Shown here in pieces: positions 58,143 through 62,224 of a DNA stretch of 64,000 bases (within the stretch, counting starts at the first letter, position 1; every line of letters begins with the position of its first letter). The position numbers were made by a program, and so were the translations under genes. The stretch comes from Acidobacteriota bacterium. GTDB lineage: Bacteria; Acidobacteriota; Terriglobia; Acidiferrales; UBA7541. The stretch covers positions 1-64,000 of the forward strand of contig PMES01000035.1 in NCBI GenBank assembly GCA_003154775.1, written 5' to 3'. A model generated the notes under the pieces. That model worked only from the letters and a program-made list of their open reading frames with translations. It was not told where the DNA came from and made no database searches.

Positions 58143-59897
58143 GTGGGAACGCCAATGGAAACCTGGGTTGACCAAGCCGCCCGGTTGACCAAGCCGGATA
58201 AAGTTGTTTTTTGCGACGGCTCCGAAGCGGAAAACAACGTCATCCTGCACGAAATGTTGAAGCATGCGGATTCCTTCCGGCTTAACGAAAAAACCTATCC
58301 CAATTGCTACCTGCACCGCAGCAGCCCCAGCGACGTGGCCCGCACGGAGCACCTCACGTTCATCTGCACTCCCGACAAGGACGATGTGGGCCCGACGAAT
58401 AACTGGATGGATCCCGGCGCGGCCAAAATCAAGGTAGGAGCGCTGCTGGACGGGGCCATGCGCGGGCGCACCATGTATGTCGTGCCCTACATCATGGGTC
58501 CCGCGAATTCGCCGATCAGCAAGGTGGGCTTGGAAGTGACGGACAGCCCCTACGTTGTGGCCAACATGCGCATCATGGCGCGCATCGGAAAAGTGGCCAC
58601 CGACCGCTTGGGAAATTCGGCGGATTTTGTGCCTGGCCTGCACTCGCTGGGCGATCTGGACCCGCTGCGCCGCTACATCGTGCATTTTCCCGAAGAGCGG
58701 CTCATCTGGAGCGTCGGTTCGGGCTATGGCGGAAACGCGCTGCTGGGCAAAAAGTGTTTTGCGCTGCGCATCGCCAGCTACATGGCGCGGCAACAGGGCT
58801 GGATGGCCGAGCACATGCTCATCCTCGGACTCGAATCGCCCGGCGGAAAAGTCACCTACATGGCCGCGGCGTTTCCCAGCGCTTGCGGAAAGACGAACCT
58901 GGCGATGATGGTCTCCGCGCTGGAGAGCCAGGGCTACAAGGTATGGACAGTCGGCGACGACATCGCGTGGATGCGGATTGCGTCGGACGGCTATCTGCAC
59001 GCCATCAATCCGGAAGCGGGATTCTTCGGCGTGGCCCCGGGCACGGGGATGAATACGAATCCCAACGTGATGCGGGCGCTGAACCGCAACACCATATTCA
59101 CCAATGTAGGCGTGACATCGGAAGACGAGCCGTGGTGGGAAGGCATCGGCGGCGGTCCGCCGGAAGGGCTGGTGACGTGGCGCGGCGAGAAGTGGGACCT
59201 CTCGAAGGGACCCGCGGCCCATCCCAACGCGCGCTATACCGTGCCCGCGCAGCAATCTCCCTGCATTTCGCCCAACTGGGAGGCGCCGGAGGGCGTGCCT
59301 ATCTCGGCGATTATTTTTGGCGGGCGGCGGGGTCGCCTGGCTCCGCTGGTATATGAATCTTTCGACTGGCAGCATGGCGTCTTCGTTGGCGCCACGATGG
59401 CCTCGGAAACAACCGCGGCCACCACGGGCGATGTGGGCATCATGCGGCGCGATCCCATGGCGATGCTGCCTTTCTGCGGCTACGACATGGCCGATTATTT
59501 CCGCCACTGGCTGGAAATGGGGAAACGCATCCCCAAGCCGCCCAAGATTTTCCACGTGAACTGGTTCCGCAGGGGCGCCAACGGCAAATTCCTCTGGCCC
59601 GGGTATGGGGAAAATGTGCGCGTGCTGAAGTGGATTCTGGAGCGCGTCGAGGGACGCGGAGAGGCGCGCGAAACAGAGATTGGCTATGTCCCGAAAAAAT
59701 CCGCTCTGACGCTGGACGGATTGCACATCGCGCGGGAAGCATTGAATGAACTCTTCCGCGTCGATGCCGATGATTGGGAGATCGACCTGGCCGACAGCCG
59801 CGAATTCTTCGCCAAATTCGGCCCCCGCCTGCCCGCGGAACTCCGCGAAGAACACCAGAAGCTTGCCCGCCGCCTCGAAAGATCCATCCCCGCCTGA
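58143..59897 (+). CDS. pckG: Phosphoenolpyruvate carboxykinase (GTP)
   Basis: Converts oxaloacetate to PEP in gluconeogenesis; GTP-dependent class, 584 aa. The kinase-1 P-loop is AAFPSACGKTNLAMM with the reactive Cys; kinase-2 is WTVGDDIAWMR; substrate loops include SPISKVGLEVTDSPYVVANMRIM and NPEAGFFGVAPGTGMNTNPN. FWPGYGENVRVLKWI-type ending (LWPGYGENVRVLKWILER) closes the nucleotide site. GTG start with GGGGG upstream; ATG four codons later is an alternative. Confidence 0.97.
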   Translation: MGTPMETWVDQAARLTKPDKVVFCDGSEAENNVILHEMLKHADSFRLNEKTYPNCYLHRSSPSDVARTEHLTFICTPDKDDVGPTNNWMDPGAAKIKVGALLDGAMRGRTMYVVPYIMGPANSPISKVGLEVTDSPYVVANMRIMARIGKVATDRLGNSADFVPGLHSLGDLDPLRRYIVHFPEERLIWSVGSGYGGNALLGKKCFALRIASYMARQQGWMAEHMLILGLESPGGKVTYMAAAFPSACGKTNLAMMVSALESQGYKVWTVGDDIAWMRIASDGYLHAINPEAGFFGVAPGTGMNTNPNVMRALNRNTIFTNVGVTSEDEPWWEGIGGGPPEGLVTWRGEKWDLSKGPAAHPNARYTVPAQQSPCISPNWEAPEGVPISAIIFGGRRGRLAPLVYESFDWQHGVFVGATMASETTAATTGDVGIMRRDPMAMLPFCGYDMADYFRHWLEMGKRIPKPPKIFHVNWFRRGANGKFLWPGYGENVRVLKWILERVEGRGEARETEIGYVPKKSALTLDGLHIAREALNELFRVDADDWEIDLADSREFFAKFGPRLPAELREEHQKLARRLERSIPA

Positions 59898-59914: not shown

Positions 59915-60080
59915 GGGAACGCCATTCTCCTGAATGGCGCTTTTAAACACAGTGTCTCAACTGGATGCGCATCGATTCGAAAATGGACCTTCCTGGCGAG
60001 TATTGTGTTTCGAATCATGCGCAATTACTTATGGCGCTTTTAGTGATCTTTGAACCGCCAATCGGGAGATTGGCGTTCCC
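59915..60080. repeat. Bipartite nested palindromic element, long copy
   Basis: Left arm GGGAACGCCATTCTCCTGAATGGCG and right arm CGCCAATCGGGAGATTGGCGTTCCC are each a hairpin, and GGGAACGCCA/TGGCGTTCCC pair with each other. Inside, GCGCATCGATTCGAAA and TTTCGAATCATGCGC form a second inverted repeat. The short copy is at 62156-62224. Confidence 0.85.
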
Positions 60081-60091
60081 GGCGGAAAACC

Positions 60092-60142
60092 ATGAACGAA
60101 GCGGAAACCAGAGCCGAACTCATTGCCGCCGCGCTGGCAGCG
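60092..60142 (+). pseudogene. Possible remnant of a type I restriction R subunit N-terminus
   Basis: MNEAETRAELIAAALAAA matches from memory the usual HsdR start (MNEAETRAE-I-P-L-AAGW), then the frame carries no HsdR-like sequence. It begins 12 bp after the palindromic element. Confidence 0.35.
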
Positions 60143-60862
60143 GCGCCTCCCTGCTCGTTCTGTAGTGGCCGGTCTTCCGCGGTGTGTGCGTCCCGGTTCC
60201 TCACCGGGAAGACCGGTTCTTGGGGTTTTCTTGCCTTTCCCCGCCGTCATTCCGCCTGCCCGCCGCAGGAGGGAGCAACGCGAGGGATCTCTCTTCCCTC
60301 TTGGGGACCGGCGCGCTCCCTGTCTCGATTCGGGAAGGAACTGTTGGCGGCGGAGTAACCCCCCTCCCCCCGCCAGTTTTCGTGAACAATAACAAAACAA
60401 AGGGTTTGCAGGCGCCACAGTGCGCAACAATGTGAAAACAGGGGACTTAAAAACTCACTGTTTTGATTTAGAAAGCCTTTGTTTTGATATGGATGCGCAC
60501 TGTTGGTGCAGAGAGTGAGTGTGCTTGGAATCTGCGGAGCGCGGGCGGGCTTGTGCCGAGTATTCACGATGCATCCTACCACACTATTTACCAATTGTCA
60601 ATAGACATTTTGAGGTACTAGCGTCGAATCTGGTACGAGGATCCGTGGAAGGAAGAGAGCAGAGCGAAGAGCGGACCTACCCTTTGCCAACCCTGCAAAG
60701 GGTAGGCCACCCGAGATTGCCTCTGCGGCTTAAGGCTGTGCCACCCTTCGCTCTTATTGCGCGGCGCCGAAATTCCGGAGACCAACCCGCGTCTTTGTCA
60801 CTCGCCAGGCTCCTGTCCTTGCCCGTTTTGCCTTTGCTGGGGAATGGCGTTAGTATCGGGGC
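60143..60862. other. Non-coding, partly AT-rich stretch
   Basis: About 720 bp with no convincing gene. 60370-60500 is unusually AT-rich for this genome, with repeated TTTTGAT and GTTTTGAT words and AAAACA runs. The rest shows only short low-quality frames. It looks like decayed accessory DNA between pckG and the DUF433 gene. Confidence 0.45.
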
Positions 60863-61087: not shown

Positions 61088-61267
61088 TGGCCGGTGGCCG
61101 ACAGATTAACGATTGAGCGATTTTGGGTGGCGCACCTCCGGCGCTGGAGGTTCTTTTCTTGCGGGGTCCCCGCGCTTACGCACGGGGCTAACTTGTGGCG
61201 CTCCTCCGGTGCTGGAAAGATGCCCTCTACAGACAGCGGAAGCGTTGTTCTTCCTTCTGCAAACCAA

Positions 61268-62155: not shown

Positions 62156-62224
62156 GGGAACGCCATTCTCCTGAATGGCGGTTTGAAGGACGGCAAGGAC
62201 GCCAATCGGGAGATTGGCGTTCCC
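62156..62224. repeat. Bipartite palindromic element, short copy
   Basis: GGGAACGCCATTCTCCTGAATGGCG and CGCCAATCGGGAGATTGGCGTTCCC, identical arms to 59915-60080 but only 19 bp apart. It lies after the peroxiredoxin gene. Confidence 0.88.

Follow-up and report, generated by a model that had tools for sequence, protein, structure and literature searches.

Probable REPINs with their own RAYT in an Acidobacteriota genome, one of them split by an IS630-type MITE

Two palindromic elements in the genome of a soil bacterium of the Acidobacteriota (assembly GCA_003154775.1) are, with high confidence, REPINs of a family of about 18 pairs which has its own RAYT, the longer one being split by an IS630-type MITE. 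They are found in the first 64,000 nt of contig PMES01000035.1, the stretch analyzed here and termed the window. A REPIN consists of two inverted REP palindromes around a short spacer and would be spread in trans by a RAYT, the REP-associated tyrosine transposase of Y1/HUH type. By analogy with other RAYTs, on which this view of cutting and copying is modeled, the enzyme would cut single-stranded DNA at the hairpin feet. The long REPIN is a very clear but ordinary case of nested mobile DNA, of a known kind.

Structure of the two elements

The arms and the neighboring gene are located as follows.

58143–59897, plus strand: GTP-type PEP carboxykinase (PEPCK) gene; the long REPIN begins 18 bp past its stop codon
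59915–59939, plus strand: arm A of the long REPIN, foot GGGAA and 8-bp stem, loop TCCT, with a conserved CCC immediately 5′
60056–60080, minus strand: arm B of the long REPIN, loop TCCC, inverted relative to arm A
62156–62180, plus strand: arm A of the short REPIN
62181–62199, plus strand: spacer of the short REPIN, 19 bp, the commonest length in the family
62200–62224, minus strand: arm B of the short REPIN

In both copies one hairpin, GGGAA-CGCCATTC/GAATGGCG, faces its near mirror image in inverted orientation. Each single arm has an 8-bp stem and a 4-nt loop, with predicted folding energies of −9.3 and −9.0 kcal/mol. The hairpin arms and the pairing outer ends at 59915–60080 are present exactly as the first-pass annotation of this DNA had described them, and sequence and coordinates also agree with its short copy at 62156–62224, which has the same arms 19 bp apart. 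The whole short element folds into one long hairpin (z = −6.75). Fold predictions show that the REPIN doublet forms a hairpin and that the individual REPs also fold singly; two such folding states, the long paired hairpin and the singly folded arms, have been proposed for REPINs (PMC3116915). A degenerate arm pattern matches the window at four places, and 100 dinucleotide shuffles give no match. The short REPIN is situated where a redoxin gene and a cytochrome c gene converge. Rfam showed no known RNA family over either REPIN.

The MITE inside the long REPIN

59940–59945, plus strand: left piece of the interrupted 19-bp spacer, ending in the TA target
59944–59945, unstranded: TA target-site duplication, left
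59946–60040, unstranded: IS630-type MITE, 95 bp, its right terminal repeat lacking GTG; the undamaged C67 and C34 copies are 98 bp
59966–59982, plus strand: internal hairpin of the MITE, left arm
60008–60023, plus strand: internal hairpin of the MITE, right arm
60041–60042, unstranded: TA target-site duplication, right
60043–60055, plus strand: right piece of the interrupted 19-bp spacer

The inserted sequence is non-coding and is present in several near-identical copies of 95–98 bp. Four TA-flanked copies are found elsewhere in the genome, on contigs C67 and C34 (98% identity), C76 (99%) and C21, the last including a run of Ns. The 27-bp terminal sequence of the MITE, AACACAGCGTCATAAGTAATTGCGCAT, recurs with two to five mismatches at both ends of full-length IS630 elements on C127 and C59. 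The transposase of these elements has a DDE_3 domain, and the DDE protein of C127 exceeds the NCBIfam IS630 cut-off. The 95-bp MITE presumably entered the spacer of the long REPIN through the action of an IS630 transposase (DDE, TA target) whose gene is at another place in the genome.

A third inverted repeat had been noted in the long copy. The pairing is real: TGCGCAT-C-GATTCGAAA (59966–59982) pairs with TTTCGAATC-ATGCGCA (60008–60023). This repeat is the internal stem of the inserted MITE and not a part of the REPIN. A search for target duplications shows a TA duplication, which flanks the inner MITE only. A 12-bp direct repeat, ATGGCGCTTTTA, at 59934 and 60031 was considered as the target duplication and rejected, since alignment with undamaged copies of the MITE and with the empty site gives TA. 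The likeness beyond TA is a chance similarity between the end of the REP stem and the damaged end of the MITE.

Removal of the MITE and one TA from the long-copy spacer leaves CTTTTAGTGATCTTTGAAC, which is 19 bp. The empty site is found in the sister genome, that of Candidatus Acidiferrum typicum UBA7541 (G035; contig C185, DLMH01000174.1), where a REPIN follows the same PEPCK gene with a 19-bp spacer, CCTTTAGTGATCTTTGAAC, and has no MITE. The genome to which the window belongs holds a paralogue at C51:94665, which is likewise without the MITE and has a 19-bp spacer, CTCTTAGTAATCTTTGAAC. These empty sites together with the TA-flanked MITE show that an insertion produced the long form and that the short form does not descend from it. 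We infer that the 19-bp spacer was the original form of the REPIN. The insertion most likely postdates the split from the sister UBA7541, which retains the empty REPIN at this position. The long REPIN is a clean example of nested insertion for which an empty site occurs naturally.

The short copy had been read as an internal deletion of the long one. The arms of the two copies are exactly the same, which agrees with a deletion, however the sequences between the arms are unrelated and 19 bp is the commonest spacer length. In addition, the extra 97 bp form an element that is flanked by TA and has further copies in other places, and both the G035 orthologue and the C51 paralogue are without this segment. 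Origin of the short copy by deletion is therefore extremely improbable. There is an equally slight chance that 59915–60080 is a single composite MITE, moved whole by IS630 or another DDE transposase. Its outer ends are inverted repeats and IS630-type ends lie inside, but no second composite copy was found, the copies of REPIN and MITE are distributed independently of each other and it is the inner part that the TA duplication encloses.

The REPIN family and its RAYT

The genome searched comprises 4.63 Mb in 150 contigs. Arms with at most one mismatch number 39 genome-wide, and a reversed-pattern control gives none. Gathering arms with up to five mismatches around these matches gives 49, of which 36 form 18 inverted pairs and 13 are single. 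The spacer is near-constant in length: it is exactly 19 bp in nine of the 18 pairs, 10–11 bp in four, and 18, 20, 28, 37 and 116 bp in one each, the 116 bp spacer being that of the long window copy. The dispersal of the family over the genome excludes a local duplication that produced two copies only, the outcome which the first-pass annotation had set as fatal to its proposal. A copy number in the tens is low for families of this type and counts against the REPIN/RAYT reading.

The orthologous regions of the short REPIN in 11 relatives have no REP arm and are too diverged to show an exact empty site. The same divergence is seen in REPIN-free orthologous intergenic regions of other relatives, where a precise empty REPIN site could not be defined.

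There are ten Y1_Tnp matches in the genome. One of these, on contig C20, is a 281 aa open reading frame with REPIN pairs on both sides, which overlap both ends of the reading frame. The sequence scores 93.7 bits against NCBIfam REP_Tyr_transpos (NF047646; cut-off 80). A profile built from its relatives matches a single PDB entry, the E. coli TnpA-REP 4ER8. At the other nine loci no REP arm was found within the 1.9–3.3 kb examined around each, the best match having seven mismatches. C20 is the only one of the ten Y1_Tnp loci linked to the REPINs. The search for an IS200-like transposase with matching ends has thus yielded a Y1/HUH RAYT bracketed by the same arms, and this, with about 18 dispersed pairs, bears out the proposal of a REP-type unit.

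In the window genome the RAYT (L260, C20:23639–24208) has the motif MPN-R-VH, i.e. RVH in place of HVH, with a CGC codon; the catalytic tyrosine is retained. Homologues that cover the motif display H-u-H, together with YIHxNP or YIRxNP. The RVH change is a single base in a draft assembly and is possibly an assembly error. If real, the arginine would remove a metal ligand and leave the REPINs without a working transposase. The RAYT of this genome may then be dead (HUH to RUH) and its REPINs a stranded population. This would be a transposase active site lost, possibly recently, in one genome and intact in the sister genome.

hsdR fragments next to REPINs

60081–60145, plus strand: fragment of the 5′ end of hsdR after the long REPIN, with leader, ATG at 60092 and about 17 codons

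About eight REPINs, including the long window copy, are followed by approximately 45–130 bp that resemble the start of hsdR. Fragments of varied length are present at 60081–60145 of the window and on C51, C69, C104, C120, C145 and C150. An intact hsdR (777 aa; ResIII and EcoEI_R_C domains) is directly downstream of the RAYT on C20. This arrangement agrees with copying of the RAYT locus that continued beyond the end of the element. Alternatively, the fragments may be decayed hsdR paralogues.

These fragments also bear on the possibility that the pairs are merely transcription terminators or mRNA-stabilizing hairpins, immobile and repeated as useful structures at gene ends. Both window copies are just past gene ends, and hairpins of this type can act in RNA. 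However, the sequence is near-identical, beyond what structure alone asks for, at about 18 loci and in other phyla, some copies have hsdR fragments attached and the link to one RAYT clade is exclusive. That the pairs have such a role alone is very unlikely, if somewhat less so than the two readings rejected above. A role in RNA and mobility as REPINs are compatible and can coexist.

Other repeats and an RNA are found in the same region of the window. Positions 60161–60253 are a short repeat, 92% identical to C129:22688–22783, which adjoins another REPIN. Positions 60302–60746 are a dispersed repeat that does not code for protein and reaches about 445 bp. The genome has some twelve long copies of it (74%–88% identity), and an imperfect inverted repeat lies within it at 60417–60503. 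An Acido-Lenti-1 RNA (RF01687) is found at 61168–61213, above the gathering score.

Related genomes and other phyla

Close relatives of the RAYT are present in G035 (88% identity), G036 (85%) and G034 (74%), and all are bracketed by the same REPs. Genomes of the genus with a close RAYT have 39, 24 and 7 REP matches, compared with 0–5 in nearly all others. Ten RAYT loci of the genus that are more distantly related (31%–38% identity) do not have this REP. One genus member, G003, has 13 REP matches with no close RAYT found, which counts against the REPIN/RAYT reading; these are either orphan REPs or the result of an assembly gap. The REPs are arranged in inverted pairs, are dispersed and are linked exclusively to one RAYT gene clade.

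A scan of genome contigs with the REP pattern gives at least 112 stretches, mostly from Acidobacteria. The non-acidobacterial matches among those listed are from Planctomycetota, Lentisphaerae, BRC1/Sumerlaeota, Verrucomicrobia and isolated other groups. At least nine stretches hold a RAYT of this clade (51%–81% identity) that adjoins REPs, and REP and RAYT occur together in MAGs of Planctomycetota, Lentisphaerae, BRC1 and Smithellaceae. The cross-phylum loci were picked by REP sequence, so that they demonstrate the linkage and overstate the conservation of the REP; some of them may represent MAG contamination, yet the full-length non-acidobacterial RAYTs are more diverged (51%–64% identical) than the acidobacterial ones (69%–88%). 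At three loci (L189:436, L149:1516 and L169:7558) the RAYT gene itself contains an in-frame REP, placed between the HUH motif and the catalytic tyrosine. An internal in-frame REP is absent from the acidobacterial members.

The REP foot and the guide-reading residue

The foot of the REP is YGGGAA, or CYGGGAA with the preceding base, in nearly all of 36 copies from the genome itself and 155 others, the latter having been picked by a pattern that includes GGGAA. In the own-genome set the GGG is 97%–100% conserved, and positions −8 to −3 were not used in selecting that set. The canonical GT[AG]G tetranucleotide is not the foot of this REP, a departure that counts against the REPIN/RAYT reading.

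In systems with a GT[AG]G foot, residues W94, Q95 and R104 are reported to show good conservation (PMC6006769). Alignment of the RAYT clade shows that W and R are kept; the position of Gln95 is His in nearly all members and Tyr in one. The replacement of Gln95 by His may be tied to the changed foot. A more tentative proposal, somewhat short of an even chance in our estimate, is that one line of RAYTs, its guide code altered so that YGGGAA is read with His for Gln95, has taken an almost identical REP through several phyla. REP and transposase would then have traveled together over long distances, the palindrome nearly unchanged while the protein diverged to about 51% identity.

The interest of these elements lies chiefly in the altered foot and the cross-phylum distribution. 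An acidobacterial system without GT[AG]G makes the rule of RAYT foot recognition testable, as a natural change in DNA can be set against a natural change in protein.

Comparison with known systems

MITEs derived from IS630, such as RUP and the Correia elements, are about 100 bp in length, duplicate TA and have ends in common with an IS630 of the same genome. The window MITE differs from RUP and Correia in sequence and in having only about five copies. The other MITE copies in the genome are not inside REPs and thus give no sign that the MITE targets them. The nested arrangement resembles that of ISPpu9 and IS1397, IS elements which insert into REPs, in that a mobile element is found within a REP unit; here it is a MITE, in the spacer and in a single case (PMC8450116, PMC1525189).

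The TIRtrons/TIRYTs of acidobacteria (Di Nocera 2013, PMC3733652) also have a Y1 transposase flanked by inverted repeats that form a small repeat family. Unlike these, the repeats described here are self-complementary REPs and do not have the GGGGWSAS motif common to many TIRs.

The RAYT clade has NHVH and YIHxNP motifs near those given for TnpA-REP subclass 2.4, i.e. RAYT group 4 (Quentin 2018, PMC6006769), and a similarly patchy spread across phyla. An in-frame REP between HUH and Y, which is reported for subclass 2.4, occurs in the relatives from Lentisphaerae, Planctomycetota and a LacPavin MAG. The differences are W-H for W-Q at the guide-reading position and the absence of a GT[AG]G foot, the comparison being one of motifs.

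Finally, the system can be compared with the REPINs/RAYTs of Pseudomonas fluorescens SBW25 (Bertels and Rainey 2011, PMC3116915) and the gammaproteobacterial REP/BIME with RAYTs (Nunvar 2010, PMC2817692). It is unlike these in its YGGGAA foot in place of GT[AG]G, in its spacing, in its fewer copies and in its acidobacterial host. It has in common with them the inverted REP doublet with a short, near-fixed spacer, the hairpin or clover fold, the dispersal over the genome, a RAYT gene bracketed by the same REPs and single REPs as remnants.
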